DNA of 64,000 nt. It comes from Clostridiales bacterium. Lineage in GTDB: Bacteria > Bacillota > Clostridia > Lachnospirales > WQUN01. The first letter of the stretch is position 1. The number at the start of each line of letters is the position of its first letter. Where the stretch lies: contig JAITSQ010000010.1 of the NCBI GenBank assembly GCA_031287685.1, forward strand, positions 1 through 64,000, read 5' to 3'. This document shows positions 64-22,490 of the stretch, one piece after another. The notes below the pieces were generated by a model. The model did no database searches and had not been told where the DNA came from. It saw only the letters and a list, made by a program, of their open reading frames with translations. A program made the position numbers and the translations under genes.

Positions 64-750
64 ATGATTTCCGAAAAGACGTTGCTTGAATACTTTGGTG
101 AATTAAACGGCTGGAAAAACGCGGAAACACTTACAGAATACGCCAATCCTGCGGTTACGGCGTGGACGGAAAGCAGATCGTCCGTTCAACGACAAAAGAT
201 GAACACCGCGGTGGAGGAGGCGGCGATGATGCGGCTGCTCTCGCTCCCCGCGGATTTTTTAATGGTTACGGCGCGGGGGAACTCGCCAACAGGACGAATA
301 ATATAAACAATCTGTGCCAAACGCTGCTGGACGCGGCGCTGTCCACGGGGCTTGGCGCGGTTTTCTCGCTTGTGCATATAACGCAGATTTTTCACCACGC
401 GCCCGCGCTACTTGTTATCCTTACGACGGTTATATTCTCGCTTGCGTCCGCCTTCGCGCGGACAAAAATTTCCCTGCGCGGTATGGAAGCCGCCTCCAAA
501 GAATCGGGGCTGACCTACGCGCTTATTTCGGGAGTGCAGAAGCTGAGGCTCTCTGGTTCGGAGAAACGCGCCCTCGCCAAATAGGGCGGAGGTTTATACA
601 AAAAAGGCGAGGCTGCTTTACGACCCGCCTGTGTTCCTTAAATTAAACGCCGTGATTACGACGGCGATTGGACTCGCCGGCACAATCGTTATGTACTATA
701 CCGCGGCGGGCGGGAAATTCGCGGAGCTTGTGGAGCGCCAGCAATTATGA
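64..750 (+). pseudogene. NHLM-type bacteriocin/peptide ABC exporter, degraded fragment
   Basis: The remains of the membrane domain of an NHLM-family (nitrile-hydratase-leader-microcin) ABC exporter can be read only by changing frame. One frame gives AAMMRLLSLPADF up to about 260. A second carries GYGAGELANRTNNINNLC, STGLGAVFSLVHI and SGLTYALISGVQKLRLSG up to the TAG at 582-584. The third resumes with AEVYTKKARLLYDPPVFLKL and GLAGTIVMYYTAAGG and stops at TGA 748-750. At the second break the local sequence is what a one-base insertion in AKWAEVY would give. No peptidase domain or ATPase is present, so both ends are lost. The first 110 bases (64-175) are open but I do not recognise them; they may be joined foreign sequence. 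Family assignment is from remembered motif similarity. It cannot make a working exporter. Confidence 0.72.
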
Positions 751-756
751 TATAAT
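728..756 (+). promoter_or_regulatory. Sigma-A-like promoter for the STAS gene
   Basis: TTGTGG at 728-733, a 17 bp spacer and a perfect TATAAT at 751-756. It overlaps the tail of the exporter pseudogene and lies about 30 bp before the STAS start codon, so the regulator genes can be transcribed independently of the wreck upstream. Confidence 0.55.
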
Positions 757-784
757 TATTAAAAGTATTCGGGAGGATTAAATA

Positions 785-1090
785 ATGACCTTGACAATCA
801 CCAAAAACAAAACCGAGAACTGCTGCGTACTATCGCTTGCGGGGCGCATTGACACAACGACCGCGCTGGAGCTTCAGCCGGAACTCGAGCAGGCGATTGA
901 CGAAAATAAGAAAGTGGCGCTGGACTTTGCCGAGGCCGCCTATGTGTCAAGCGCGGGGCTTCGCGTTATACTCGCGGGCGAAAAGCGGGCGAAAGCGCGC
1001 GGGAGCGTTATGACGCTTATAAACGTATCGAAGGACATAATGGAAGTTTTCGATATGACGGGGTTTACGGACATATTGAAATTCGAGTAA
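785..1090 (+). CDS. STAS-domain anti-sigma factor antagonist (RsbV/SpoIIAA type)
   Basis: A 101-residue single STAS domain. Proteins of this family bind an RsbW-type kinase when unphosphorylated and release its sigma-factor (or other) partner; the kinase phosphorylates a serine just before the conserved GL and a PP2C phosphatase removes it. Here the site is VSSAGLRVIL, with Ser55/Ser56 as candidates. The start has a good GGAGG Shine-Dalgarno at 772-776. The RsbW-like kinase follows on the same strand and a SpoIIE-type phosphatase faces it from the other side, so all three parts of a partner switch lie within 3.2 kb. No sigma-factor gene is present in the window, so the output is unknown. Confidence 0.9.
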   Translation: MTLTITKNKTENCCVLSLAGRIDTTTALELQPELEQAIDENKKVALDFAEAAYVSSAGLRVILAGEKRAKARGSVMTLINVSKDIMEVFDMTGFTDILKFE

Positions 1091-1287
1091 AATAAGCGCC
1101 GGAGGTATACTCCTTGGCGAGCTTAAAGCCGCGCTTGCCCGCGAGGATTTCGCGATACAGCCATTTCAGTTTTCAAACGGATTTGCCGCGCGCACCATTA
1201 GGCTGGCCGCGCAAGTGAGGAATCCGCGCGGTATCGCGGCAAAGGACCGCGAGCAAGTTTAATTTTAAACCGTCAAGGAGTATGAGA
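1091..1287. other. Spacer with a 53-codon open stretch, no gene assigned
   Basis: Between the STAS and kinase genes one plus-strand frame (1101-1262) is open for 53 codons but has no ATG, GTG or TTG start placed with a ribosome site. A GGAGG at 1101-1105 precedes a TTG at 1114 in a different frame that runs only 34 codons. I do not recognise either product. This may be a decayed gene or chance in GC-rich DNA. Confidence 0.35.
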
Positions 1288-1683
1288 ATGAAAGAACTGC
1301 GGATCGAAGCTAAAACCGAAAATTTGGAAACCGTCCTGGATTTCGTGGAAACCGCGCTTGAGGGCGTTTCTATGAAGCGGCTGAATCAAATACTGATTGC
1401 CGTTGAGGAAGTTTTTGTCAATATCGCCAATTACGCCTACAGCCCTAACTCGGGTGAAGCGTTGATACTTGCGTCTGTCGGCGATTTCGTCATTATTGAA
1501 TTCGAGGACAGCGGCGTCCCGTATAATCCTTTGGAGCGGGAAGCGCCTGATATGGCCCTGCGCGCCGAAGACCGCGTAATCGGGGGGCTGGGCATACATA
1601 TGATCCGGAATTTGATGGACGAAGTGACCTATCGCCGCGACGGAAATAAAAATATTCTGACAATTAAAAAAGAAAAATCTTAG
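1288..1683 (+). CDS. RsbW/SpoIIAB-type anti-sigma serine kinase
   Basis: A 131-residue GHKL/HATPase_c_2 protein. The N box reads EEVFVNIANYAY, the G1 box DSGVPYNPL and the G2 box GGLGIHMIRNLMDEV, which together form the ATP pocket of RsbW-type kinases. The start at 1288 is preferred over an ATG six bases upstream because AAGGAG at 1275-1280 is correctly spaced for it. It would phosphorylate the STAS protein encoded just before it and sequester a sigma factor or another target. The gene ends at a palindromic repeat that separates it from the convergent phosphatase gene. RsbW and SpoIIAB themselves cannot be told apart here, and the target is not identifiable. Confidence 0.88.
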   Translation: MKELRIEAKTENLETVLDFVETALEGVSMKRLNQILIAVEEVFVNIANYAYSPNSGEALILASVGDFVIIEFEDSGVPYNPLEREAPDMALRAEDRVIGGLGIHMIRNLMDEVTYRRDGNKNILTIKKEKS

Positions 1684-1730
1684 AGTTTTGGTTTGCCTGA
1701 AAAGATTCAGGCAACCAAAGTCTCCTTCTT
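1684..1730. repeat. Palindromic unit between convergent genes (possible terminator)
   Basis: GGTTTGCCTGAA and TTCAGGCAACC pair around a short loop. The outer arms AGTTTT and AAAGTCTCCTTCTT match the shared arms of the palindromic family in reverse orientation. It sits exactly between the kinase stop and the end of the PP2C gene, so it could terminate both transcripts. Confidence 0.7.
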
Positions 1731-1754
1731 TATGGTTCATTAAAAGCGCTGTAT

Positions 1755-3941
1755 CTATTCATTACGCTCCGTTATTTTCAGCGCTAACATTGTAATGTCG
1801 TCCGCTTGCTCCGCGCCGGACGCGAAACGCTCAACTTCCGCCTGTATGCCTGTTATCAGCTTTTGCGGCGCGTCCTCGCGCCCCGCGTTAAAAGCTCGCA
1901 TCAGCCGGGCCTCCGAAAAAAGTTCGCCGCCGCCATTCGCCGCCTCCGTCACGCCGTCCGTATACATAAACAGCGTATCTCCCGGCGCAAGCGTAGTTTC
2001 TTCTTGAGTATAAACCGTGTCCTCCATACCCGCCAGCACAAAGCCGGGGCGGCTTGAGCGCAGCCATTCGCCTTGCCCGGTGTTTTTTGGCTCTTGGCGC
2101 CGAGCCAAAAAGCCCCCTTCTTCCCCGCCGCCGCGCCTTATAATCGGCGGGTTATGTCCCGCGTTTACATATGAAAACCTGCCTGTGCTGATTTCGAGGT
2201 ATCCCATAAACACCGTGACAAACATACAGGTATCGTTGTTTTCGCAAAGCGACGCGTTCACGATTTCAAACACTCGTTTTGGAGACCACCCGCCAAGCTG
2301 AGCGATGTTTTTAAGCAATGTGCGCGCGACCACCATAAACATCGCGGCCGGTATGCCCTTGCCGGAAACGTCCGCTATCAGCACCGCCAAATGGTCGTCG
2401 TCCGTCATAAAAAAATCGTAAAAATCGCCGCCGACCGCTTTGGCGGGTTTCATTACCGCGTACATTTCCGGGAACAGGCTGAAATTACGCGGCAGCATAG
2501 AAGACTGTATCGCGCCCGCTATTTTAAGCTCCGCGCGTTCGCGCGCCTCGATGATGGCGGCGCGTTCAGCTTCTGTAATGTAGTCCTTCAGGCTGCGCGC
2601 CATTTTGTTTACAGAGGCGGCAAGCGTCCCAATCTCATCTTCCGCGCGGATATTAATCTCCTCGTCCAAAAATCCGTTAGCTATGCGTAAAACACCCTCC
2701 TGAAGCTGCGTGATCGGGCGCGTAATGGTTTTTGAAAACTTAATTGAAAACGCGATGATTACGCAAAAAGACAGCAGAAATACGGCAAAAAATTTAAGCA
2801 TAATTTTATTAATCGCCTTATCGAAAACCCGCGTCGTTCCGTCTTTTAGATTAGTTATCTGCGCTTCCATAATATGCTTTGTAACCTCCGTCTCTCTGAC
2901 GGGCAGCACAAAGCATATGCTCCAGTTTAAGGTTTTAAGGGGATAATAGGCGGCGTACACAAGTTCTTCGTCTATCTTCAGTTTGCGTAACCCGGACTTT
3001 CCGGAGGTCATCTCGGACGCCAGCGCCCTGAGTTCCTCGTTGGGGCTGTTGAGATAGTCTTCTCCCGTTACGGCGCCGTCGCCGCGGGCTGTCAAATTAC
3101 TGTTCGAGCGCTGATTTATAATCGCTTGCCCTCGGCTGTCCAGCAAAAAGGCGTACCCCTTCGCTCCTACCTCAGCATATCTTACTATGCCGTCTATTTC
3201 CGAGAGCATCGCGTCTGTGCCAGCGACTCCGCGAAAAATTTTCTCCTCGCCGCGAAGCTCGTAAATCGGCACGCTGCAGGTGATTTCCGCGCCGTATCCG
3301 TCTGAATAGTTCACAATCTCGCTCCAATACGCCGCGCCGGATTTTTTCGCGCCCTCATACCAATAACGCGCGCGCGGGTCGTAGCCGCGCAGCGGCGCGG
3401 CGGCGGCGGGATCTGAGTCCACCGCTATAAAACTGCCTTTTTCCGTGCCTATATAGCTTGCGATTATCGGTGAGTTTTCCTTCAAAACCGGGATCAGAGC
3501 GCCGCGAATGTTGCCCATAAGCAGCAGTTCCTCCCGCGCGTCCTCCCCCCCCTCTGGGGACAGGCTGTAACGCACGTTCTCCGAGGCGTCCAGGGCGTCT
3601 TGCCAGTTTGTGAGCGGCGCCGGCGCGTATTCCTTTTCGTGGGAATAAATGTAGGACGCGCTTTTCGCGACCGTCTCGCTTTGACGCTGAACCTTTTGCA
3701 GTTCGCTATCTACAAGCGCGACGCATTGTTCCGCGACTGTCCGCAGCGTATCAATCGCATGAGCCCTGTATATGGAAAACGTTTCCTCCGACATCTCCTG
3801 ACTAAGCTCGTTTATGTTGCCGATTGCGCTGTCGCGCATATTAAACGCGCCTATTATGCTGAATACGCCAAGAAACAGCAAACCGCTTAATGATATCGCT
3901 GAAATTATCCCCATTATTCTTAATTTGATGCTCTTTTTCAC
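1755..3941 (-). CDS. Membrane sensor PP2C phosphatase (Cache-HAMP-SpoIIE)
   Basis: A 728-residue receptor phosphatase. One membrane segment lies at about residues 9-32 (IMGIISAISLSGLLFLGVF), followed by a long extracytoplasmic Cache-like sensor to about 375, a second membrane segment (KFFAVFLLSFCVIIAFSI), a HAMP domain, a short helical linker and a C-terminal PP2C/SpoIIE domain. Metal-binding motifs are visible: GGDFYDFF, ADVSGKG and ADDITMLAL. It should dephosphorylate a STAS protein, and one is encoded 665 bp away. The start is a GTG with an AGGGGG about 12 bases upstream, a loose fit. It begins 31 bp after the Sfp-type gene and is probably co-transcribed with the NRPS. A 50 bp palindromic repeat is embedded in frame at residues 607-623, just after the conserved NAGHNPP. 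Confidence 0.9.
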   Translation of the reverse strand: MKKSIKLRIMGIISAISLSGLLFLGVFSIIGAFNMRDSAIGNINELSQEMSEETFSIYRAHAIDTLRTVAEQCVALVDSELQKVQRQSETVAKSASYIYSHEKEYAPAPLTNWQDALDASENVRYSLSPEGGEDAREELLLMGNIRGALIPVLKENSPIIASYIGTEKGSFIAVDSDPAAAAPLRGYDPRARYWYEGAKKSGAAYWSEIVNYSDGYGAEITCSVPIYELRGEEKIFRGVAGTDAMLSEIDGIVRYAEVGAKGYAFLLDSRGQAIINQRSNSNLTARGDGAVTGEDYLNSPNEELRALASEMTSGKSGLRKLKIDEELVYAAYYPLKTLNWSICFVLPVRETEVTKHIMEAQITNLKDGTTRVFDKAINKIMLKFFAVFLLSFCVIIAFSIKFSKTITRPITQLQEGVLRIANGFLDEEINIRAEDEIGTLAASVNKMARSLKDYITEAERAAIIEARERAELKIAGAIQSSMLPRNFSLFPEMYAVMKPAKAVGGDFYDFFMTDDDHLAVLIADVSGKGIPAAMFMVVARTLLKNIAQLGGWSPKRVFEIVNASLCENNDTCMFVTVFMGYLEISTGRFSYVNAGHNPPIIRRGGGEEGGFLARRQEPKNTGQGEWLRSSRPGFVLAGMEDTVYTQEETTLAPGDTLFMYTDGVTEAANGGGELFSEARLMRAFNAGREDAPQKLITGIQAEVERFASGAEQADDITMLALKITERNE
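2073..2122 (-). repeat. Palindromic unit inserted in frame in the PP2C gene
   Basis: The plus strand reads GCCCGGTGTTTTTTGGCTC, a short loop, GAGCCAAAAAGCCCCCTTCTT: the arms of the palindromic family with a GGCTC/GAGCC core. Translated in the phosphatase frame it gives GGFLARRQEPKNTG, a different frame from the NRPS copies. The reading frame continues intact on both sides. Confidence 0.85.
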
Positions 3942-3972: not shown

Positions 3973-4569
3973 CTAAAACAGCGCAATATCGGGTTCGGCG
4001 ACAATACTCTCTTTCGCCGCGCACACGGTCATAGCATAGCCGGGGAACAGTTTATGAAAGCCGAAAAACCGCGCCGCCGTCTCTGAATTATACTTGAACA
4101 AACTCTCTTTCTCCGTCCACAGCCGGAAGAACATCGCGGACTGCCGTTCCGCCTCGCGCGCCAATAACGCTCTCGCTTCCTCAGCGGTGAAACAGCGCGC
4201 CGCTATGTCAAATTCAGCGTCGGTAAGCGGCTTTACCCGCTCCACGTCTATCCCGACCTTCCCGCTTTCGCAAAACGCCGCCGCCGCGACGCTCCCGCTG
4301 TGCGACAGGCTTACGCGTATTCGCGGCAGCGCCGCGAAGCGGGGCGCGCCTTTGGCGTCATAAGTGAATCCGCTCGTCCGCTCCCTCAAGCCTAAGCGCG
4401 ACAAATAAACGTCGCAAAGCAAACCAACGCCGAGCGAAAGCGCGCGGTCCTTCGGGAAGCGATAACGCCCGGCGCGCAGCTGCCTGACTTGCGAGAGCGC
4501 GCGCAGCCTTTCGGCAAACGCGCTCTCGTCCAACAGCGGCGTGACGTCGGCGGCAATCACGCTAACCAT
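3973..4569 (-). CDS. Sfp-type 4'-phosphopantetheinyl transferase
   Basis: A 198-residue enzyme that converts apo carrier proteins to the holo form by moving phosphopantetheine from CoA to the conserved serine. Diagnostic motifs are GIDVERV (Asp108, Glu110) and WTEKESLFKY (Lys154, Glu155), plus SLSHSG near residue 88. It is slightly shorter than Sfp, with a reduced C-terminus. It starts one base after the stop of the adenylate-forming ligase, implying translational coupling, and is in the NRPS operon, so its obvious substrates are the three carrier domains of that synthetase. It could also serve other carrier proteins. Confidence 0.93.
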   Translation of the reverse strand: MVSVIAADVTPLLDESAFAERLRALSQVRQLRAGRYRFPKDRALSLGVGLLCDVYLSRLGLRERTSGFTYDAKGAPRFAALPRIRVSLSHSGSVAAAAFCESGKVGIDVERVKPLTDAEFDIAARCFTAEEARALLAREAERQSAMFFRLWTEKESLFKYNSETAARFFGFHKLFPGYAMTVCAAKESIVAEPDIALF

Positions 4570-4570
4570 A

Positions 4571-5944
4571 TCATTCTTCCTTTAACGTCGCGCGGAACTT
4601 CCCTCCCGCGGTGCGGATAAACGGTTCCGACGACAGCGTTACCCGCGCCGTCAGCCCGTTGCTTTCTATCACCTTCTGCAAATAATTTCTGAGGTTCTCG
4701 CCGACCGCCGCCCACTCATATCCGTGTTCCGCCTCCATACGTATCTCCAGCGCGCCGTTTAACTTCTGGATGAACTGCGCCGCGCCGCACCCTTCAATAT
4801 CTAACGCCGCGAGCATCATCACGGTCGGGGAAATCGGAATCCTCCGCCCATCCGCCTCGAAGGTCAGAATCTCCTCCTCTCGCCCGCGCAATTCAATAAA
4901 CGGCAGGTTAAGCCCGCAGCCGCACGGCTCGTCGTGCCATATCACCTTATCGGTCAGCCGGTATCGGATGACTGGCTGCACCAAATTCGCCAGATTCGTA
5001 ATCAGCACGCCGTTTGAAAGCGCGCCGGGCGGGGTTGGGCGGTTGTCGCCGTCCACGGGTTCGACTATAACCCAGTCGCTGTTGACGTGCATATGTCCCT
5101 TGGGGCAGCTCATGGCGATTTCGCCGCCCTCGGTAGAACAATAATTGTTAAGAACGGGGCAGCCGAAAGTCTTCATAAGCAATTGGCGGCTGTCTTCGGT
5201 CAGCTGTTCTGCGGAGCAGGCGATATATTTAGGCGCTATGTCAAGCCGCCCCGCTTGTTTGGACGGCGCCAGAGTGAGCATGGCGGAGGGATAACAGGCG
5301 ATGGCGTCAGGCTGAAACTCATTCAGGCGGCGCTCCATTTCGTGAAGCGGGGTATCCACGGGGATAAGCAGGAGATTATCCTCCTTGCCTATGGCTTTCA
5401 GCTGCTCTCGCGTTCTCAAATAGGAGAGGTAGGCGGAGTGGAAACCCTTGTTTGAAATTATGGCGCAGACCTTCATATCCCGCGCGGCTTTAAGCCCTTT
5501 TACCTCCTTCAGGCAGGCTCCCCCAAGGTACCGCTGAGACATCAGCGCGCCGTGAACCGCGCCGTGCCTGTCGTCACGGAGCAGCATCAGCGGGTCGCCC
5601 GTCGTGCCTGAGGTCGTCATCGCCTTGTAGCCCTTGAAGGATTTGGCGAGGTTGGCGAAGTCGGTCACGAAAGCGCGCAACTCCGCGCCTTTTATTTCGC
5701 GGTCCGTCACCCAGTCGTCAAAGCGCGCCGTCAGTTCCGAACGAAGCGTGACGGGAATATCCGCCAAGCCGGGCGTATCAGATAAGCCGCGGTATTTTTC
5801 TTTGAAATACGGCGAGTTGCTCCGCGCGTAGGCCACAAGCTCGCGCAGACGCTCAAGCTGCAGTTCGTCTATCCGCTCGCGCGAAAGACCGGTCGCGTCC
5901 GAGACCAGTTTGTCCGCCTCCCGCTGGGAAAGGTTAAGCGGCAT
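4571..5944 (-). CDS. Stand-alone adenylate-forming ligase, PaaK/CapK-like
   Basis: A 457-residue member of the phenylacetate-CoA ligase branch of the ANL superfamily. It has the phosphate-binding loop TTSGTTGDPL, a YCSTEGGE motif in place of the YGPTE of NRPS domains, and the hinge RYRLTDKV. I moved the start to ATG 5944 because GGAGGA lies directly before it; an upstream in-frame ATG at 5962 lacks this. In biosynthetic clusters such enzymes activate an acid for transfer to CoA or a carrier protein. Lying between the NRPS and the Sfp-type gene, it may supply an acyl or aryl starter, fitting the unusual first adenylation domain. The substrate cannot be read. Confidence 0.82.
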   Translation of the reverse strand: MPLNLSQREADKLVSDATGLSRERIDELQLERLRELVAYARSNSPYFKEKYRGLSDTPGLADIPVTLRSELTARFDDWVTDREIKGAELRAFVTDFANLAKSFKGYKAMTTSGTTGDPLMLLRDDRHGAVHGALMSQRYLGGACLKEVKGLKAARDMKVCAIISNKGFHSAYLSYLRTREQLKAIGKEDNLLLIPVDTPLHEMERRLNEFQPDAIACYPSAMLTLAPSKQAGRLDIAPKYIACSAEQLTEDSRQLLMKTFGCPVLNNYCSTEGGEIAMSCPKGHMHVNSDWVIVEPVDGDNRPTPPGALSNGVLITNLANLVQPVIRYRLTDKVIWHDEPCGCGLNLPFIELRGREEEILTFEADGRRIPISPTVMMLAALDIEGCGAAQFIQKLNGALEIRMEAEHGYEWAAVGENLRNYLQKVIESNGLTARVTLSSEPFIRTAGGKFRATLKEE

Positions 5945-6001
5945 ATTAGCTCCTCCGTTCATATTTTAGACCTCTTTCGAAACTCTGATTTCTGTTAAAA
6001 T

Positions 6002-9000
6002 TTAATCAAAATACCCTAACCCGCTAATACTTCCCGCAAAATCGGCAAGATATTTATCCGACGTGAGCGGCCACTTGAACCCAAGGCGTAACAGCGCCTG
6101 CGAGGTATAGCGGTTGTCCGCGCCGATTACGGTCATCTCTTTTTCGCCCGGCGAGTTTTGATAGGCGATCAGAGCGGACAGCTTCTTGACTTTCTTAGCG
6201 TCCTGAACCGCCTTGCTGTAGGCGCGGGCAAACTCCTCGCGCTCGCACGGCTTTACGTCAATGCCGCTCTCGTTCAGCACAGACACCACATCGCCCATAT
6301 ACACGCTGTGGTCGTTGTACGCGTGAAACACGGTACACTCTTTAGGAGTGACGGCAAGTTTGAGGATAGCCGCCGCCGTGCAGTCAATGGGCGAAAACTC
6401 AACCTCTCTCGCCATATCGCCGTAGGGGATACAGCCTAAAATGTGAAACGCCCGCAGCCGCCCGAGGAAGCTGTTTGTGTTGAAATTAGCCTGAAACTCG
6501 CCGTCCTCCGAACGCGCCATAAGGTTGCCCACGCGTATCACCTTAGCGTCCAAACCCTCCAGCGCCGCCTCAAGCACAAGGCGCTCCGCGAGGAACTTGC
6601 TGTTTACATATTTGTTGGACAAATCCTGCCCGAAATACAGCTTTTTTTCATCCAGCAATACGTCCTTGGGCGGATTGCCTCCAACGCTCATGCCCGCGAC
6701 GCTGGTGGTGGATATTTGCACGTATCCGCAGCCCGTCCTCCTGCTGAAAGCCAGCCCGTTTCTCACGCCGCCGATGTTTACGTCCTCGATGTCCGTACCC
6801 GCCGAGAAGTGTTTGACGTTCGCGGCGCAATTAAACAACGTGTCGACGCGTACTTTTTCCAGCTTTTCAAACACCTCCGCGCCGCGAATATCCCCGTCCA
6901 GCACGACAATCCGCGAACCAAACAGCTCGTCAAACGCATCGCTGAAATAATAAAACAGCATATTTTTGAGCCGCGTTTGGGCGGCGAGTTTGCCGCCGCG
7001 CACCACGCAATACGCGACGCCGCCGCAGCTCCGCAAATACTCCCTAAGCAGATGTACGCCCAAAAAGCCTGTCGCGCCTGTTATGCACACATTGCCAACC
7101 TCGCGCCGTTTGCCTTCCAGGAGGGAATCAATTGTGTTAGCCTGAAGCAGCTTGCGAAGCGCGTCATAGTCGTAATTATCAACCGCGTCCGCGGCGCTCG
7201 GCGTTTTTTGCGAACGCTCGCGGCCGCCGCGAAAAGCCGCTTCCTTCGCGTCCGGCGGCGCGGCGTTCGCAAGCAGACCCAGCTCGCGCGGGGTCGGGTT
7301 GTCGAACACGTCGCCGTAGCTTATCTGATATCCTTTGCCGCTTGCTTCAATCGTAACCTGCGTCACAAGCAAAGACGTGCCGCCGATGTCAAAGAAGTTG
7401 TCCTCCGCTCCCACCCGCTCAAGGCCCAGAGCCTTCGCGAAGATAGCGCAGTACGCCTCCTCCGCTTCGGTCGCGGGCGGCGCGTAGTCGTTTAACGCCA
7501 GCAGCTTAGCTTCGGGCAGCGCGCGGAGGTCTATTTTGCCGTTAGGGGTCATAGGCAGGCTGTCCAGCTGCAAATACGCTGTGGGGAGCATATACTTCGC
7601 CAGCGTGAGCGACAGCCGCTGACGCAGTTTGTCGGGCGCGAGGGCTGAGCCGGCGGTGTAGTACGCGCACAAATGCTCCTGTCCGTTTATGCTCTTAATC
7701 AGCGCGACGCTGCGCTTCACTCCCTCGCAAGCGCCCAGCGTGTTCTCGACTTCGCCCAGTTCGATACGCAGTCCGCGCAGTTTCACCTGTCCGTCGTTTC
7801 TGCCCAGTATAACGACTTCCCCGTCGTCTGTCCATTTGGCGATGTCTCCGGATTTATAGTAACGCGCGCCGCCGTAGGCGACAAACCGCTCAGCCGTCAG
7901 TTCGGGCTTATTCAGGTAGCCGCGCCCGACGCCCCTGCCGCCTATCCACAGTTCGCCGACGACTCCCGCCGGAAGCGGGTTGCCGTCTATATCCATAACC
8001 TGCTCCGCGACGCCGTCAACCGGCGCTCCTACCGTCACAACGCCGCTGTCAAGAAGGGGGCTTTTTGGCGGGGCATACATGGCCGCCCGGTTCTCAACCC
8101 GGAGACGCAAGCATTGCGTCGGAGGGCCAGCAAGAAGTTTCACGTTGCAGTCTATTGTTGTTTCGGTCGGACCGTAGCTGTTAAATATTTCCGCGTCCGT
8201 AAGCTCGCGCAGTTTGCCATACAGCCCGCTCGGGAACTTCTCCCCGCCGACCATAAGCATCTTGCAGCCGCCAAGCGCCTTTTTCATATCGGGGTGCTCC
8301 ATATATTGCGTAAGCACGGAGGGAGTCGCCCACAGGAAGTTAGCGCCCGTCCGGAACATAAGCTCCGCCAGCGCGGCGGGGTTGCGCGCCTGCTCCTCGT
8401 CCGCGAGCGCGAGGCTCAACCCGTTAAACAGCGTCATTATGACGTTGCCCGTGAACACGTCAAAGGACACCGTGGTAATGACCGCCGCTCTGCACCTGTG
8501 CCTGACCGCCGCGGCCTGTTGTATGTTGCGCTCAAAGGGCGCCGCCCAGCCCACCGCCGATTTGTGCTCAATCATCACGCCCTTCGGCTTGCCTGTTGAG
8601 CCGGAGGTGTAGATGACGTAGCACAAATTGCCGGGAGCCACGGCGACGCTTGGCCGCGCGGCGTTTGCGTGCGCGAGGAGCTTATCCGCGTCAAGCCCGT
8701 TGCCGAAGGCGTCTTTATTTTTCGCGTCCGTCAGTATATACTTCGCTCCGCTGTCCGCTATGATGTGGTCTATGCGCTCTTTGGGATAGGCGGGGTCTAT
8801 CGGAATGTACGCGCCCCCCGCTTTCAGTATGCCGAGTATCGAAAAAAGCACCCTGCTGTCCCTGGGCAGAAAAAACGCTATACGGTCCTCCGGCTTCACG
8901 CCCAGCTCCAGCAGCGCGTTAGCGACGCGGTTCGCGCCGTCGTTGAGCTGTTCGTAAGTAAACTCTCCGTCCGCGGCAATGAGAGCGACTGCGGAGGGCG

Positions 9001-12000
9001 CGGACGCCGCGTGCCGCTCAAAGAGTTCGTGCAGGGCGGGGGCGGGCAGCGGCTGTTCGGGGCCGCAAAAACTCGCGACGCGTTCAAGCTGTTTCTCCGT
9101 GGCGACCACAAAACCGCCCAGCTGCTTGTCTAAGTTTGCCGCGAACCTCTCCGCCACATGGGCCGCACAGTCCGCGAACGTCCGCATTGTGCTGTCTTTA
9201 AACAGCGACTTGTCATATCTGACCGTAAGCGTGTAACCGCCGGAAGCCTCCCCCACCGAAATATCCACGGGGAACTTCGCGGCGTCCAGCCGCACGGCTT
9301 CCGCCTTTGCCGCCAGGCCGCTGTTCTGTATCACGCCGCCCTGGTACGCGAACATTATTTGAGGTTCGTAAGAGTAGTCGGCGGCAATCCGCGTATACGG
9401 ATACGCCGAATGTTCCATAGTTTCAAGCATAACGCGCTGGACGTCCGCGAGATACCGCCGCGCCGAGCTGGCGGGGGGTATGTCAATCACAAGGGGCAGC
9501 GTTTTCACAAGCATACCCAGATTGCTTTGCAAATGAGCCTTGTCCCTGCCGTTTATGATTGTCGCCAGCCGCGCCTGCCTTACGTTCGCGAAGCGGCTTG
9601 CCGTGTAGCTAACCGCGCCCAGGAACAAGCTGGCGGGAGTGACTGCAAGCTGTTTCAGCGCGCCGGAGAGCTTGTCTTCGGGTATAAACGCGCTCACGCT
9701 CGCGGGCTCGCTCGGTGTTTTTTGGCGGCTGAATCCCCGCCCAAAAGCCCCCTCCTTGCTCGGTGTTTTTTGGCGGCCGAATCCCCGCCCAAAAGCCCCC
9801 TCCTTGCTCGGTGTTTTTTGGCGGCCGAAGCTCCGCCCAAAAGCCCCCTCCTCGCCCGCGTCTTCGGCGGCCGCGTGGTCGGCTGGTATGGCGGTCGCGC
9901 CCTCTCCGTCGCTTAAAAGCGAAACGAAGTACGCTTTCGCGCCGTCGTACTCAGCGTCTCCCTCACGCGGCTCCGCAAGCGATAAGTCAAAACTTGTGAA
10001 GGTTTCCGCTTCAAGAGCCTCGCCCGCCAGCGCCTTTGACAGGTCGCGCAGGAATATGTCCGCGGACGCGCCGTCAAAGATGATGTGGTGGAAGTCCATA
10101 AGCAGATGCACGGCTTTTTCGGTGCGGTACAATTCAACGCGGAACAGCGGCCCCTCAAAAAGGTTGAACGGACGCGCAAAAGCGTCGCGCAGCTTCTCGT
10201 ATTCAGCCTCCGCGACAGAGCCGCAGGGTATTTCAACCGGATATTCGTCCCGCCGCTCCTGACACACCTCGCCGTCTTTCATAACGAGGCGCGTCTTGAT
10301 GTAGGTATGCGCGGCTATGACGGCAAGCGCGGCTTTTTTGAGGTCGTCAAGGCTGGTTTCAGCGTCAAGCTCAAGCGCGAAAGGAATGTTGTACACAACC
10401 GACGCGGGCTGCCTGGCGCAGGCGAAATAAACGCCCAGCTGATTTTGCGTCAAGGGGTATACCTCACGTTTATCAAAGGCCGTCAGCGCGTAGTCGTCGT
10501 TTCGCTCCACCAGCGCTGCGAGTTTTTCTATTGTTTTTTCACGCATTATGTCGGTGGCGGCTATGGTCTTGCCCGTTTGTTTGGTTATCCGCGCCGCGAA
10601 CTTGATAGACGACAGCGACGTCAGCCCCATATACATCAAGTCGTTGGTAATGCCAAGTTCCGTCACGCCGAGAATATCCCGGGCTATGTCAAGCAGCTGT
10701 TTCTGCGCCTCCGTCTGCGGCGGAACCGATTCCTCGGCGGCTACCTCTATCTTCGGCAGTTTCCTTTTGTCAACCTTGCCGTTGGGGGTCAAGGGGATTT
10801 TATCTATTTGCGTAGTCGTCGCCGGCACCATATAAGGCGGCAGTTTTTGCTCAATAAACTGATTGAGCGCCTTTATGTCCACGTCCTTCCGCGACACGAT
10901 ATAAGCGACGGCGCGTTTGCCGCCGCCGGGCGCGTCCTGCGCGACTACGGAAGCCGCCGTTATGTCCGGGTACTGGAGTATGCGCCCCTCGATTTCCGTC
11001 AGCTCCACGCGGAAACCGCGTATCTTTATTTGGAAATCCCGCCGCCCCACAAAGTCAAGGACGCCGTCCGGCAGGAAGCGCGCCACGTCGCCCGTTTTGT
11101 ACATTACCGCCGTCTCTTCGCTTGTCCGGAACGGATTGGGCACAAACTTCTCCGCCGTCAGCTCCGGGCGGTTCAGATAGCCGGGGGACACCTGCCGCCC
11201 GGCTATACATAGTTCGCCCGCCGCGCCGACAGGCGCAAGCTCACCCTGTTTATCAAGCACGTACAGCTCCATATTGGGCAGGGCGCGGCCTACGGGCACG
11301 CGGTCATTTAAGCCCTCCACCTTGAAGAAGCTTGACGCGACGGTACATTCGGTCGGGCCGTAGAGATTGCATAAGCCGTACCCCTTCGGCGGCGCGATAG
11401 GCGTCAGCGTTTCCCCGCCCACCGACAGCGCGCGGAGCGAGCGGTTGTCCATATTCTCCGCGAACGCCCGCCCCATTTGCGTGGTGAGGAACGCCACGGT
11501 GATTTTGTTCCGGTTGTAATAGTCGTTTATGCCCGCCAAATCCAGCCGCGTTTCCTCGGGAATTATGTGCGCCGCGCCGCCGCTGATTAAAGCGGGATAC
11601 ACGTCCATCATAGACGCGTCAAAGCCGAAACTGGCGTAGGCGGCGGCGTTATCCGCTTGCGTCAGCTTGAAATAATTACGGTACCAGGTGCAGTAGTTCA
11701 CTACGTTTTTTTGCGACAGCATAACGCCTTTGGGCGTCCCCGTCGTGCCGGAGGTGTAAAGCAGAATCATTAAGTCGCCGGGCGCGGGCGGGTCCGGCAA
11801 AGCGTCCGCGGGGGGCAGCGCGGCGATATCGCCCGTATACAGATACTCTCCGCTCCCGCCGGTCAGCTCCAGGGCGATTGCTTCGTCTTTGATAATTACA
11901 GCCGCGTTCGCGTCGGAAACCATAAACGACAGGCGCTCCGCGGGGTAGGTCGGGTCAAGCGGGAGATACGCCGCGCCGCTTTTCATAACGCCCAGGGCGC

Positions 12001-15000
12001 ACACCACCATCATTTCGCTCCGATTGATAAGTATGCCCGCGACGCCGCCTTTGCCTATTCCCTTTTGCGCCAAACGCGCGGCCAAACGGTCTGTTAAGTC
12101 GTCAAGGGCGGCGTAGGACAGGACGCGGTCTTTGAACACGACGGCGGCGGCGTCCGGCGCGCTCCGCGCCCGCGCCCGTATTAAATCCACAAGAGTCCTG
12201 TCTATATTTTCATCTGATTTATCGCCGGTAAAATCCTCTAAAATCTGTTTCCTCTGGCGTTCCGGCAGGCGCGCGGCCTCTTGGACGCGCGCGGTTCCGC
12301 CGCGCTCCGTGATGTTTTTGATAACCTCCGTGAATTGTTCGAGCATACCCTCCACGACCGCTCCGTCATAAAGTTTATCTGAATAGCATAGCTCCAGTTT
12401 TATGCTGTCTTCGGAGCGTGTGAACTCAAACACCAAATCCATCGCCAGTTCCTGTCCCTTAACGCTCAGCCTGCTGACGGAAAGCGTCTTCATACGCCGC
12501 GGCGGCAGCTCGCGCAGATAGTTGACGGTCACGTCAAATATAGGGGAGCGGGAGGAGTTGCGCTCCTCCGCGAATTTTGAGACAAGCCTCTCAAAAGGAT
12601 AGGTCTGATGTTTTTGCAATTCATTTTGCAGGTTTGAAACTTCGGACACATAGTCCGCTACCGTCTTGTCAAAAGAGGGTTTGAGCCGCAGCGGGAGCGT
12701 GTTTACAAACATTCCGACCATATCGTCCGTTTCCGGGAGCGTACGCCCGTTCATAGCCGCGCCGATCACCACGTCCTCCGACGCGCAGTATTTGCCCAGT
12801 GTAATGCCTATCGCGGCGGTAAGCAGCGTATATGGCGTAACGCCTAACTTCTTCGCGGTCAGCTCAACCGCCGCCGCGTCAAGCGTTCGCGAGGCCCGCT
12901 CCGACGCGAAGGGCAGAGCGGCGGGGCGCGCGGCGGCGCACGGCATATCATTTTCGGGCACGCCTCCGGCAAACATATTATTGAAAAACGCCTCGCTGTC
13001 CGCGTACTCCTGACGCGCCTCCGCCCACACGGCGTAATCCGTATAATCAAACTGAACGGGCGGCAGAAGCTCGCCGTCGTACAGGCGCGTGAGCGCGTTT
13101 ATCAGCGTACCCGCGCCAGTGGCGTCAATGATGATGTGGTGCATACAAAAGTGTATGGCGCCCGTAAACTCGGACTGCCTAAACAGGTTTACGCGCGCGA
13201 GAGAGGGTTTGCCTATCTCAAAAGGGGTGTTGAGCGCCTTGATTTGAGCGTATATCTCCTCCTCCCGCGCGCAGGGTATTTCGTTGAAGGGCAGAGCTGC
13301 GCCCTCCGCTATCTTGTGCTGATATTCGCCGTCTTCATACACATAATATGAGCGCAGTATGGGGAAGCGCGCCGACAGCTGTTCAAGCGCCGCGGCAAAC
13401 CTTGTTTTGTCAAAGCGGCCTGTGTATTTCAGCGCGAAGTTGACGTTGTACGCTACGGAATCAGGGTGCAGGGTCTGCTCTATCGCCATTTGACGCTCCG
13501 CGAACGTGAGCGGGTACGACGTTCGTCGCGCGGCTTTTTCAAGAGGCCGCGCGTTCTCTTTCAAGACGGCGGCAAGTTTGCGCGGTGTGCGCAGAGTCAG
13601 AATATCGCTCACCGTGATACCGAACGCGGCTAACTCCCTCTGCAGTTTGAGCGCGTTTATCGAGTCGCCTCCCAGAAGGCCGAAGTCGTCCAGCGCGCCT
13701 ATGTTCTCAAGGCCGAGCGTTTTTTCAAACGCTTCGCACACCGCTCTCTCGCGCTCGCCCTCGGGCGGTTCGTAAAGCGTCTTCCATTTCTCCGCGTCGG
13801 GCGGAAGTATGCGGGCGCGGTCAACCTTGCCGTTTGCATTGAGCGGCAGCTCGTCTATCTGCTCCAAAAACGCGGGCAGCATATAATCAGGCAGGAAGGC
13901 GCGGATTGCGTCAAGAACCGCCTTTGGCGGGATTTTCTCTTCAGCCGTGTACACGCCGAACAAACTCGTCTGCCCGTACATATTTTCAAAGCCCTTCACA
14001 ACAGCTTTCTTGATAGGCGCGTACCGCGCCATAGCCGCCTCCACCTCGCCCGGCTCCACGCGGAAACCGCGTACTTTCACCATCCAGTCTTTTCTCTGCA
14101 CATACACGTACTGACCGTCGGAATTGAGATACCCCAAGTCGCCGCTGCGGAACACGCGCTCCCCGTTATACATAACGAACTTTTCCGCCGTCAGCTCCGG
14201 GAGATTGAGGTAGCCCTCCGCTATCTGTCCCGCGAGATACAGTTCTCCCGTTTCTCCTTGCGGCACTTCGTTCATATCGTCGTCTAATATGTAAACTTTG
14301 CTGCCGCCTGTGGGCCGCCCGATGGGAGTGCTGTCCGCATACAGCCGGTCTACTGTAAACGCGGAGATTGAACCGCAGGACTCGCTTGAGCCATAGCCGT
14401 TAACTAAAACAGGATGTTCACTGTAAACGCCAGCGAGCTTTTCAGAACCAACCCCGATTAAACGCAACAAGCCGCCCGTGGCGGCAAGAAACGGCGGCAA
14501 GGCCTGCGGAGGAATAAAAGCGGCGGTTATGCCGTTTTGCTTGGCGTAAGCGGCAAGCAGCCCAATATCTTTCCGAACGGCGTCGGAAGCGATATGCAGC
14601 GTCGCGCCGACAGCGACCAATTTCAGCGCGGCGGGTACGGACGCGACAAAGGAAAAGGGAGCGATAGAGAGGAATATGTCTGTGTTTAAGAAAAAACTGC
14701 TGTCTGTCAGCGCCATAGCTACTGAGCGATGCGACAGCAGTACGCCTTTGGGGTTGCCCGTCGAGCCTGACGTGTATACGACAAGCGCAAGGTCTTCGGG
14801 TTTAGCTTGGTCTATATCAAGAAGCGGCGCGCGCTCGGCGGGAGGGTTCATATGCTCCGCCGTCCACGCGTAGTCAACAAGAAAATCCGCCTTTATGTCG
14901 CTCATTATAAACTCGCGCCGCGCCTCCGGATAGGACGGCTCTATGAAGCAATAAGCCGCCCCGGCGCGCAACGCGCCGATTATCGCGACGACCGCCTCGT

Positions 15001-15187
15001 TGCAGCGGTCCATACTTATGGGAATGATATCGCCCTTGCCCAGCCCTTTGCCGCGCAGCGCGCTCGCGACGCCGGCGGAGCGCTTCCGCAGTTCGTCATA
15101 AGTAACGCTCTCGTTATTATATACCAACGCGGCTTTTGTTCCGTGCGCGCTTGCGCTTGATAAAAACTGCTCGATAAAAGTATTCAT
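6002..15187 (-). CDS. Three-module NRPS with terminal reductase (A-T-C-A-T-C-A-T-R)
   Basis: A 3061-residue synthetase. Order by residue: A1 about 1-465, T1 (LLGGDSINAL, Ser509), C1 555-965 (HHIIIDATG), A2 1000-1480 (LLYTSGTTGTPKG, NLYGPTE, Lys in TPNGKVDK), T2 (MGLTSLSSI, Ser1524), C2 1577-2000 (HHIIFDG), A3 about 2020-2560 (YTSGSTGKPKG, SYGPTETT), T3 (FFDIGGTSLL, Ser2605), then an NAD(P)-binding thioester reductase from about 2695 (GATGFLG 2704-2710; YVNSK). Reductive release predicts a three-unit peptide aldehyde or derived alcohol/cyclic imine. A1 has Val181 (FSFVAS) where FDAS is expected, so it probably loads something other than an alpha-amino acid. Palindromic repeats are inserted in frame at residues 1779-1826, 2351-2380 and 2648-2664. 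No thioesterase, epimerase or exporter is encoded nearby. Confidence 0.95.
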   Translation of the reverse strand: MNTFIEQFLSSASAHGTKAALVYNNESVTYDELRKRSAGVASALRGKGLGKGDIIPISMDRCNEAVVAIIGALRAGAAYCFIEPSYPEARREFIMSDIKADFLVDYAWTAEHMNPPAERAPLLDIDQAKPEDLALVVYTSGSTGNPKGVLLSHRSVAMALTDSSFFLNTDIFLSIAPFSFVASVPAALKLVAVGATLHIASDAVRKDIGLLAAYAKQNGITAAFIPPQALPPFLAATGGLLRLIGVGSEKLAGVYSEHPVLVNGYGSSESCGSISAFTVDRLYADSTPIGRPTGGSKVYILDDDMNEVPQGETGELYLAGQIAEGYLNLPELTAEKFVMYNGERVFRSGDLGYLNSDGQYVYVQRKDWMVKVRGFRVEPGEVEAAMARYAPIKKAVVKGFENMYGQTSLFGVYTAEEKIPPKAVLDAIRAFLPDYMLPAFLEQIDELPLNANGKVDRARILPPDAEKWKTLYEPPEGERERAVCEAFEKTLGLENIGALDDFGLLGGDSINALKLQRELAAFGITVSDILTLRTPRKLAAVLKENARPLEKAARRTSYPLTFAERQMAIEQTLHPDSVAYNVNFALKYTGRFDKTRFAAALEQLSARFPILRSYYVYEDGEYQHKIAEGAALPFNEIPCAREEEIYAQIKALNTPFEIGKPSLARVNLFRQSEFTGAIHFCMHHIIIDATGAGTLINALTRLYDGELLPPVQFDYTDYAVWAEARQEYADSEAFFNNMFAGGVPENDMPCAAARPAALPFASERASRTLDAAAVELTAKKLGVTPYTLLTAAIGITLGKYCASEDVVIGAAMNGRTLPETDDMVGMFVNTLPLRLKPSFDKTVADYVSEVSNLQNELQKHQTYPFERLVSKFAEERNSSRSPIFDVTVNYLRELPPRRMKTLSVSRLSVKGQELAMDLVFEFTRSEDSIKLELCYSDKLYDGAVVEGMLEQFTEVIKNITERGGTARVQEAARLPERQRKQILEDFTGDKSDENIDRTLVDLIRARARSAPDAAAVVFKDRVLSYAALDDLTDRLAARLAQKGIGKGGVAGILINRSEMMVVCALGVMKSGAAYLPLDPTYPAERLSFMVSDANAAVIIKDEAIALELTGGSGEYLYTGDIAALPPADALPDPPAPGDLMILLYTSGTTGTPKGVMLSQKNVVNYCTWYRNYFKLTQADNAAAYASFGFDASMMDVYPALISGGAAHIIPEETRLDLAGINDYYNRNKITVAFLTTQMGRAFAENMDNRSLRALSVGGETLTPIAPPKGYGLCNLYGPTECTVASSFFKVEGLNDRVPVGRALPNMELYVLDKQGELAPVGAAGELCIAGRQVSPGYLNRPELTAEKFVPNPFRTSEETAVMYKTGDVARFLPDGVLDFVGRRDFQIKIRGFRVELTEIEGRILQYPDITAASVVAQDAPGGGKRAVAYIVSRKDVDIKALNQFIEQKLPPYMVPATTTQIDKIPLTPNGKVDKRKLPKIEVAAEESVPPQTEAQKQLLDIARDILGVTELGITNDLMYMGLTSLSSIKFAARITKQTGKTIAATDIMREKTIEKLAALVERNDDYALTAFDKREVYPLTQNQLGVYFACARQPASVVYNIPFALELDAETSLDDLKKAALAVIAAHTYIKTRLVMKDGEVCQERRDEYPVEIPCGSVAEAEYEKLRDAFARPFNLFEGPLFRVELYRTEKAVHLLMDFHHIIFDGASADIFLRDLSKALAGEALEAETFTSFDLSLAEPREGDAEYDGAKAYFVSLLSDGEGATAIPADHAAAEDAGEEGAFGRSFGRQKTPSKEGAFGRGFGRQKTPSKEGAFGRGFSRQKTPSEPASVSAFIPEDKLSGALKQLAVTPASLFLGAVSYTASRFANVRQARLATIINGRDKAHLQSNLGMLVKTLPLVIDIPPASSARRYLADVQRVMLETMEHSAYPYTRIAADYSYEPQIMFAYQGGVIQNSGLAAKAEAVRLDAAKFPVDISVGEASGGYTLTVRYDKSLFKDSTMRTFADCAAHVAERFAANLDKQLGGFVVATEKQLERVASFCGPEQPLPAPALHELFERHAASAPSAVALIAADGEFTYEQLNDGANRVANALLELGVKPEDRIAFFLPRDSRVLFSILGILKAGGAYIPIDPAYPKERIDHIIADSGAKYILTDAKNKDAFGNGLDADKLLAHANAARPSVAVAPGNLCYVIYTSGSTGKPKGVMIEHKSAVGWAAPFERNIQQAAAVRHRCRAAVITTVSFDVFTGNVIMTLFNGLSLALADEEQARNPAALAELMFRTGANFLWATPSVLTQYMEHPDMKKALGGCKMLMVGGEKFPSGLYGKLRELTDAEIFNSYGPTETTIDCNVKLLAGPPTQCLRLRVENRAAMYAPPKSPLLDSGVVTVGAPVDGVAEQVMDIDGNPLPAGVVGELWIGGRGVGRGYLNKPELTAERFVAYGGARYYKSGDIAKWTDDGEVVILGRNDGQVKLRGLRIELGEVENTLGACEGVKRSVALIKSINGQEHLCAYYTAGSALAPDKLRQRLSLTLAKYMLPTAYLQLDSLPMTPNGKIDLRALPEAKLLALNDYAPPATEAEEAYCAIFAKALGLERVGAEDNFFDIGGTSLLVTQVTIEASGKGYQISYGDVFDNPTPRELGLLANAAPPDAKEAAFRGGRERSQKTPSAADAVDNYDYDALRKLLQANTIDSLLEGKRREVGNVCITGATGFLGVHLLREYLRSCGGVAYCVVRGGKLAAQTRLKNMLFYYFSDAFDELFGSRIVVLDGDIRGAEVFEKLEKVRVDTLFNCAANVKHFSAGTDIEDVNIGGVRNGLAFSRRTGCGYVQISTTSVAGMSVGGNPPKDVLLDEKKLYFGQDLSNKYVNSKFLAERLVLEAALEGLDAKVIRVGNLMARSEDGEFQANFNTNSFLGRLRAFHILGCIPYGDMAREVEFSPIDCTAAAILKLAVTPKECTVFHAYNDHSVYMGDVVSVLNESGIDVKPCEREEFARAYSKAVQDAKKVKKLSALIAYQNSPGEKEMTVIGADNRYTSQALLRLGFKWPLTSDKYLADFAGSISGLGYFD
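7196..7246 (-). repeat. Palindromic unit in the T3-reductase linker of the NRPS
   Basis: A 51 bp unit with the family arms (GCTCGGCGTTTTTTGCG and GCGAAAAGCCGCTTCCTT on the plus strand) and a GC-rich core. It encodes KEAAFRGGRERSQKTPS in the flexible linker between the last carrier domain and the reductase. It is in the same reading frame as the tandem copies in C2. Confidence 0.8.
8050..8136 (-). repeat. Longer palindromic element inside adenylation domain 3
   Basis: The plus strand begins AAGAAGGGGGCTTTTTGGCG and continues with GGCCGCCCGGTTCTCAACC and CGGAGACGC, matching almost base for base the element at 22055-22106 and partly the one near 49615. It adds about 28 residues (residues 2351-2380) between core motifs A5 and A6 without breaking the frame. 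The flanking protein, CNVKLL and DSGVVTVGAPVDG, reads as normal A-domain sequence. Confidence 0.8.
9710..9853 (-). repeat. Three tandem 48 bp palindromic units in NRPS domain C2
   Basis: Three head-to-tail copies of exactly 48 bp start at 9710, 9758 and 9806. Each has arms GCTCGGTGTTTTTTGGCGG and CCGCCCAAAAGCCCCCTCC. They encode 16-residue repeats of the form KEGAFGRGFGRQKTPS at residues 1779-1826, in the linker between the two lobes of the second condensation domain. Copies differ by single bases. Confidence 0.92.
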
Positions 15188-15233: not shown

Positions 15234-15275
15234 CATAACAGTATAGATTTTACCACAATGTTATGTCGCTGTCAA
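15234..15275 (-). promoter_or_regulatory. NRPS operon promoter with palindromic operator-like site
   Basis: On the minus strand, a perfect TTGACA (15270-15275), a 17 bp spacer and TAAAAT (15247-15252) lie about 60 bp before the NRPS start. CATAACA and TGTTATG (15234-15240 and 15259-15265) form a 7+7 bp inverted repeat that brackets the -10 box, as a repressor site would. An AGGAG ribosome site precedes the ATG. No candidate repressor gene is adjacent. Confidence 0.7.
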
Positions 15276-17251: not shown

Positions 17252-17279
17252 ATTACTCCGCCCTTTCTGTCTGTACGCC

Positions 17280-17436
17280 GCTCGGCGTTTTTTCGCGCCT
17301 AATGCCGCGCGAAAAAGCCGCCTCCTTGCCCGGCGTTTTACGCCGCCTTTAAAAAATTTAGGCCGCGCAAAGCCCCCTCCTTGCCCGGCGTTTTACGCGC
17401 CTATAAAAAATTTAGCCCGCGCAAAGCCCCCTCCTC
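17280..17436. repeat. Three tandem palindromic units with divergent cores
   Basis: Units at 17280-17327, 17328-17382 and 17383-17436 in the same orientation. All begin GCYCGGCGTTTT and end AAGCCSCCTCCTT or a close variant. The cores differ: one contains CGCGCCTAATGCCGCGCG, while the others contain TTTAAAAAATTTA-type inner sequences flanked by GC-rich arms. They occupy most of the gap between the ftsH stop and the CDF start. Confidence 0.8.
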
Positions 17437-17477
17437 GCCCGGCAAGCCCGCGCGTTTTCGGCCGCAAGCTCGGGGCG

Positions 17478-21995: not shown

Positions 21996-22490
21996 ACTAC
22001 AGCCGTTCTTACTTGAAAAAGGCTGAAAGCGAGAACGAAACGCGCGGCAAGCAGGTGGCTTTTTGGCGGGGCAGACACGGCCGCCCGGTTCTCAACCCGG
22101 AGACGCGTTTAGGTTTTGCGCGGGCGCGAACGTTTGCGGCGGCTTTTTCGCGAAGCGAAAATAGCGGGAGCAAGAAGGTGGCTTTTTCGGGCGGCTTTAA
22201 GCCCGAAAAAACACCGAGCAAGAAGGGGGCTTTTTCGAGCGGCTTTAAGCTCGAAAAAACGCCGAGCAAGAAGGGGGCTTTTTCGGCAGGCATTAGTGCC
22301 GAAAAAACACCGAGCAAATGTGGGGAAGCCGAAGGCGTGTTTAGTGTTCGCGCGGGCACGAACGTTTGCGACAGCTTTTTCGCGAAGCGAAAATAGCGGA
22401 AACAAACGCGGAGAACCGCCAAAAAACACCGACCATCAGGCGCGTTTCGGGCGACGCTTAAAGCTTATTTTCAAGTTGAACGGCTGTAGT
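21996..22490. mobile_element. MITE-like element with ACTACAGCCGTTC inverted ends
   Basis: ACTACAGCCGTTC at 21996-22008 and its perfect complement at 22478-22490 bracket 495 bp; the match extends inward as ACTTGAAAA/TTTTCAAG with one base of slippage. The interior carries no credible gene. It contains the GGCCGCCCGGTTCTCAACC segment shared with 8050-8136, two TTTTCGCGAAGCGAAAA hairpins and three tandem palindromic units. Minus-strand translation through the right end supplies the last codons and stop of the transglycosylase gene. No transposase is encoded. Confidence 0.8.
22171..22316. repeat. Three tandem palindromic units with compensating stems
   Basis: Forward units at about 22171-22219, 22220-22266 and 22267-22316. 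Arms are nearly identical (AAGAAGGKGGCTTTTT and AAAAAACRCCGAGC). The stems are CGGGC/GCCCG, CGAGC/GCTCG and CGGCA/TGCCG, around loops GGCTTTAA, GGCTTTAA and GGCATTAG. Base changes on one side are matched on the other, so pairing itself is conserved. Confidence 0.92.

Follow-up and report, generated by a model that had tools for sequence, protein, structure and literature searches.

The 64,000-nucleotide stretch of Clostridiales DNA analysed here (the window) encodes a three-module nonribosomal peptide synthetase (NRPS) in which an A-T loading module quite probably replaces the acylating starter condensation (C) domain, the expected product being an N-acyl-dipeptide aldehyde. The substrate part of this reading is proposed because all nine first adenylation (A1) domains compared, including the one in the window, have lost both the 235 and the 325 amino-acid determinants.

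Gene, domain order and operon

The NRPS is encoded on the minus strand by an open reading frame that starts with ATG and, according to the ORF list and its translation, runs for 3061 aa without an internal stop. Pfam detected three AMP-binding domains, three PP-binding domains and one NAD_binding_4 reductase domain; its three Condensation stretches represent two domains, as an insertion splits C2. Pfam and motif positions agree on the order A-T-C-A-T-C-A-T-R with neither a starter C domain nor a thioesterase, as the sequence-only reading had proposed, and its expectation of reductive release also holds, with a terminal R domain that keeps GxxGxxG and YxxxK. The carrier serines are intact in the modules. 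The protein thus has the sequence features of a reductase-terminated NRPS (peptide-aldehyde synthetase), and the R domain predicts that its product is probably released as an aldehyde.

The NRPS forms a four-gene operon with genes for a PaaK-like ligase, a phosphopantetheinyl transferase and a SpoIIE phosphatase, with gaps of 39, 1 and 31 bases. A promoter-like site sits 60 bases 5' of the NRPS start; its pattern occurs at 3 sites in the region, where chance alone would give 0.2. An assembly-wide search found no other NRPS in the 1.88-Mb assembly. The features are as follows.

6002..15187, minus: three-module NRPS, A-T-C-A-T-C-A-T-R (ORF, Pfam, orthologues)
13802..15187, minus: A1, loading adenylation domain, aa 1-462 (codes, GrsA alignment, model)
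13553..13780, minus: T1 carrier domain, Ser509 in LLGGDSI
12239..13522, minus: C1, HHIIIDA at aa 683-689 (Pfam, motif)
10754..12205, minus: A2, code DAMFSGLVAK
10508..10699, minus: T2, MYMGLTSL, Ser1524 (Pfam, motif)
9173..10465, minus: C2 (approximate bounds), HHIIFDG, carrying the repeat insertion
7553..9100, minus: A3 (approximate bounds), code DVGWMGSIDK
7283..7510, minus: T3, FDIGGTSL (Pfam, motif)
6365..7090, minus: R, thioester reductase (PF07993, E 1.3e-30), TGATGFLG and YVNSK
4571-5962, minus: PaaK-like adenylating ligase, 463 aa, directly after the NRPS
3973-4569, minus: Sfp-type phosphopantetheinyl transferase, PPTase (PF01648, E 2.9e-14)
1755-3941, minus: Cache-HAMP-SpoIIE phosphatase (Pfam)
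1282-1683, plus: RsbW-type HATPase, switch kinase (Pfam; 46% to the L018 homologue)
785-1090, plus: STAS anti-anti-sigma-like protein (Pfam)
15247-15275, minus: promoter-like site, TTGACA-17-TAAAAT, TG-extended (pattern match only)

The pocket of A1

Pocket residues were numbered after GrsA, with 10 of the 10 GrsA code residues placed correctly. In this alignment the A1 motif FSFVASVP has Val instead of Asp235; positions 235, 325 and 517 correspond to V181 (DNA 14645-14647), S267 (DNA 14387-14389) and K454, and the full code reads VAPFGGGGSK. The earlier observation of VAS in place of DAS, at the position that holds the alpha-amino group, is therefore confirmed, with no replacement Asp apparent in the 34-position signature. 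The acids of that signature are confined to 213 (D), 303 (E) and the invariant E327. Position 303 is acidic also in A2 and A3 of the same protein, 303 and 327 are acidic in ordinary A domains of the NRPS family too, and D213 has no acidic counterpart in the A1 domains of orthologues; the signature lends no support to an acid having moved into the pocket.

Because it retains Lys517, the A5 Glu and the core motifs, A1 looks like an active adenylation domain. It runs directly into T1, with no ketoreductase between them. The features of aryl-acid (DhbE-like) domains are absent, A1 having NGYGSSES versus QQVxFMAEGL and V235 versus Asn235. An AlphaFold model of A1 built from a 40-row alignment reached a pLDDT of 90.5 (56.6 from an 8-row alignment), and in a comparison with solved structures it was nearest to LgrA and other amino-acid A domains, from which A1 therefore appears to descend. 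Against this model, wild-type LgrA, LgrA P483M (6ulz) and a hydroxy-acid variant of TycA (7ywk) score within 1 Z of one another, a comparison that does not separate substrates. A text search of the literature with the pocket code strings of A2, a relative's A1 and the A2 of L105 matched no NRPS paper.

Orthologues in two lineages

Besides the source genome, ten genomes of the class proved to encode orthologous three-module synthetases, which fall into two lineages with about 51% and about 37% identity to this NRPS over the aligned length. The family is rare: among 398 genomes drawn across the phylum it occurred in one, the source genome itself. In the first lineage, a ligase scan yielded three MAG loci and a class-wide search a fourth. 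At each of these loci (L018, L019, L020/L028 and L038) a MATE exporter gene lies between the orthologous NRPS and the ligase; NRPS identity, measured for three of them, is 51-52%. A PPTase gene is present in 4/4, and SpoIIE and RsbW genes in 3/4. The second lineage, located by searching with A1, belongs to one genus of another family (6 of the 12 genomes there), and the four loci read, L067-L070, share the same 3000-aa architecture with no ligase adjacent. The A1 domains of the two lineages are about 36% identical to each other. The sequence-only reading had pointed to NRPS clusters of gut Clostridia; a gut origin is not established for the source genome, and for the three named relatives, all uncultured MAGs, no habitat is stated.

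Eight orthologues were read, four with and four without an adjacent ligase, which together with the synthetase of the window makes nine A1 domains. GrsA position 235 is aliphatic in all nine (V in the window, I in the eight orthologues) and position 325 is a non-proline residue in all nine (S, C or M, within YG-S/C/M-[ST]E), versus Asp235 in 40/40 and Pro325 in 38/40 of the comparison A domains of the same set. Fisher's test gives p 3e-8 for A1 against the other A domains, a value that ignores relatedness among what are really two lineages. None of the family's A2 and A3 domains shows the joint loss at 235 and 325. By residue count, the GrsA-325 column maps to P483 of LgrA (index 485 of the chain used, whose numbering is shifted by two residues).

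In two of the first-lineage loci the NRPS is immediately preceded by a gene for a membrane acyltransferase of the Acyl_transf_3 type (L018:2082-3170 and L028:1886-2971), which is reduced to its two ends at L019:3337-3479.

Modules 2 and 3 and the predicted product

The GrsA alignment gives the codes DAMFSGLVAK for A2 and DVGWMGSIDK for A3. The A2 domains of both lineages form one clade (support 100/99) with the first A domains of L105 and L109, two homologous two-module reductase synthetases accompanied by PPTase. These align best to residues ~731-3061 of the NRPS, that is, after the loading module, at 35% identity, and each starts with an additional stretch about as long as a C domain, in which the HHxxxDG motif is lacking. 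The synthetase of the window thus has the homologous A-T-C-A-T-R body of the clostridial N-acyl dipeptide-aldehyde NRPSs, but their acylating starter C domain is absent from its N-terminus, where A1-T1 stands instead. The simplest reading of this arrangement is that A1-T1 was placed before a dipeptide-aldehyde synthetase and takes over the acyl-capping job.

Since modules 2 and 3 are homologous to two-module dipeptide-aldehyde synthetases, the product should be a capped dipeptide aldehyde of the form acyl-aa-aa-aldehyde, N-acylated and possibly alpha-ketoacylated. Of the three-unit aldehyde foreseen earlier, the reductive release stands, but the homology of modules 2 and 3 suggests a capped dipeptide rather than a tripeptide. 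The product is probably a protease inhibitor. In the proposed route, A1 would adenylate a carboxylic acid lacking an alpha-amino group and load it onto T1, C1 would couple this acid to the amino acid carried by T2, C2 would couple the T2 unit to the amino acid carried by T3, and R would free the chain as an aldehyde. A keto acid, if loaded, would remain keto because no ketoreductase is present.

Pyrazinones arise from dipeptide aldehydes with a free amine, and the product of AusA, the aureusimine/phevalin synthetase, is such a free-amine dipeptide, which cyclises. A pyrazinone, previously listed among the products to look for, is accordingly unlikely here, because unit 1 would have no free alpha-amine. 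AusA (NF047350) resembles the present NRPS in having modules that end in R, but it is two-module, and the NRPS scores 1643 against NF047350, below the cut-off of 2500.

The C1 motif HHIIIDA, noted before as unusual, is indeed present; however, it is a private point difference and not a hallmark of the family, the orthologues having HHIIMDG, HHILMDG, HHIICDG or HHIVCDG, and it is a conservative change of a structural Gly. In the C-domain tree, which has long branches, C1 is not clearly grouped with starter C domains.

The substrate of A1

The most likely reading is that A1-T1 does the work of the starter C domain by loading a carboxylic acid that is not an amino acid, and the view that the substrate is not an alpha-amino acid is well supported by the pocket comparison. 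The alpha-keto-acid domain StsA combines an aliphatic residue at 235 with a non-Pro residue (M415) at the proline of YGPTE, and its M415P variant is inactive, while the changes P483M/A give LgrA slight activity on keto acids (PMC11253843). A1 resembles keto-acid domains in its hydrophobic 235 and its non-Pro residue at the same proline. It departs from them in having no ketoreductase in its module, which the known keto-acid modules carry, and in sharing only the aliphatic 235 and Gly301 with their published code, V-G-M-(W/T)-(N/I)-G-(A/T/V)-S-x-K (PMC5238615). An alpha-keto acid is therefore a best single guess only; the alternatives would be a hydroxy acid and plain acids of the branched, aryl or fatty type. 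The earlier suggestion of an aryl, fatty, hydroxy or beta-amino acid is upheld as far as a unit other than an alpha-amino acid is concerned, given the loss of 235 and 325 in 9/9, but a beta-amino acid is disfavoured because the solved beta-amino-acid A domains keep Asp at 235 (PMC11253843).

Within the preferred reading, a plain carboxylic acid (branched-chain, aryl or fatty) in place of a keto acid is a serious contender, although we would stop short of calling it probable. The all-Gly pocket (G299, G301, G322, G330) gives room for a bulky chain, module 1 contains no ketoreductase, and the adjacent PaaK-like ligase hints at carboxylic-acid metabolism; in addition, the non-Pro A5 motif YGMTE of the second lineage resembles that of acyl-CoA ligases. 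For an aryl acid, however, the A5 motif QQVxFMAEGL of aryl-acid A domains (PMC11253843) would be expected where A1 has NGYGSSES, and the keto-acid domain AulA activates alpha-methylene acids poorly (PMC5238615), so that the two classes are usually distinct. A different possibility, which we consider improbable, is that the substrate of A1 is an ordinary hydrophobic alpha-amino acid, held without the aid of Asp235, in which case the assembly line would yield a free tripeptide aldehyde. In McyG, Val at 235 (V227) is compatible with activation of L-Phe (PMC11253843), a precedent by which a missing Asp may not strictly exclude an amino acid, and the fold and sequence of A1, nearest to LgrA and its like, and the retained Lys517 point the same way. 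The joint loss of Asp235 and Pro325, found in 9/9 A1 domains but absent from the A2 and A3 domains of the family, argues against it, as do the requirement of StsA for a non-Pro residue in the 325 column (PMC11253843) and the extra C-size region at the start of the two-module homologues, which is read as an acylating C domain.

The PaaK-like ligase

Against TIGR02155 (PaaK phenylacetate-CoA ligase) the ligase scores 28, below the curated cut-off of 646, and its best solved relatives are the PaaK-like ligases 6siw and AjiA1. It was earlier put forward as a possible help in loading A1; this idea finds no support, because at L067-L070 an A1 of the same type occurs where no ligase is adjacent, so that the ligase is dispensable for an A1 of this kind. 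A stronger version, in which the starter acyl-CoA or acyl-AMP comes from the ligase and A1 is a bystander in decay, is in our view very improbable: the ligase does adjoin the NRPS in the operon and, at ~50% identity, recurs in the NRPS clusters of four orthologous loci, but A1 is conserved with all its catalytic motifs, the four second-lineage loci read have such an A1 without the ligase, and ligase homologues at ~35% stand alone elsewhere. As most homologues in the order and class stand alone, they are no marker of the NRPS cluster. The search found no relatives of the ligase on viral contigs. Three tandem PaaK-like ligases related to it are encoded at G417:C273:1982-6359 (L034, L035, L037).

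Regulation and export

The RsbW and STAS genes beside the operon belong to the conserved cluster and, with SpoIIE, complete a partner-switch set; these genes probably form a partner switch that governs production or export. In relatives, the MATE exporter beside the orthologous NRPS has a C-terminal RsbW-like HATPase domain (L018:12149-13921, L068:14827-16608 and equivalents), detected by Pfam in L068 and by tblastn only in L018, and this MATE protein with its RsbW-like tail adjoins the NRPS in L067-L070. The fusion suggests that export is coupled to the SpoIIE/RsbW switch in these relatives. The source genome holds only distant homologues of this exporter (24-27%). Combining these observations with the best guess for the A1 substrate, one may tentatively imagine, as a rather doubtful extension, that a never-reduced alpha-keto acid gives alpha-ketoacyl-dipeptide aldehydes with two electrophilic groups, under a SpoIIE/RsbW/STAS switch that is wired in relatives to a MATE-RsbW exporter.

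A two-module C-A-T-C-A-T-R synthetase in another family (L071:1249-11703) is preceded by a PPTase, a STAS protein and a SpoIIE protein that bears an RsbW-like tail, so the same partner switch adjoins an aldehyde-type NRPS there.

Comparison with known systems

The gut clostridial dipeptide-aldehyde NRPS clusters include that for ruminopeptin of Ruminococcus bromii and the pyrazinone/aldehyde clusters, with the aldehyde as the active form (PMC12327764). At the level of architecture the present NRPS is like them, sharing Clostridia as hosts, amino-acid modules and aldehyde release, but it has in front an A-T loading module without Asp235 and Pro325. With the StsA, CesA1 and PksJ-type modules A1 shares the aliphatic 235 and, in the case of StsA, the non-Pro residue at the YGPTE proline (PMC11253843, PMC5238615); unlike them, it has no ketoreductase, its other pocket residues differ, and its assembly line ends in reductase release and is not a depsipeptide line. 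The aeruginosin synthetase AerA loads a monocarboxylate or keto acid first and then amino acids, and some members of its family end in argininal (PMC10143770). The NRPS would work alike, with the acid first and amino acids after it, whereas AerA has a KR, is cyanobacterial and differs in its later modules and release.

The family is a small, testable set of Clostridia peptide-aldehyde synthetases with an unusual loading module, for which the preferred reading predicts a specific product class, capped dipeptide aldehydes and not pyrazinones. In addition, natural A domains that lack the 235 and 325 determinants and have gained no ketoreductase are useful for learning and engineering A-domain selectivity.

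Private insertions and a dispersed repeat

Compared with its orthologues, the NRPS has three private insertions of more than 3 residues (49, 27 and 17 aa), each placed by the alignment at a loop or linker.

9731-9877, minus: 49-aa insertion in C2, an in-frame array of a dispersed 48-bp repeat
8051-8131, minus: 27-aa insertion in A3 after motif A5, part of which matches the repeat inverted
7190-7240, minus: 17-aa insertion between T3 and R, repeat-like (AAFRGGRERSQKTPSAA), with QKTPS

The 48-bp repeat, which reads KEGAFGRGFGRQKTPS in the NRPS frame, is often tandem and has 46 listed places in the source genome, mostly intergenic, with further copies in the window at 17279-17441 and 22170-22315; it was found in 0/40 of the other, relative genomes searched. 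On one strand the repeat folds into a hairpin that is slightly better than those of shuffled sequences (z about -2). All three insertions look as if they derive from the dispersed repeat, one of them clearly. Palindromic elements insert into bacterial coding genes, and the private insertions of the NRPS may be a similar case.

Elsewhere in the source genome, a region at G000:C14:350-8914 (L114) encodes two adjacent stand-alone condensation-domain proteins alongside three glycosyltransferase-like genes, as well as a 561-aa protein that has, by eye, the look of a GH3-type acid-amido synthetase, and this region is a possible second unusual biosynthetic cluster.
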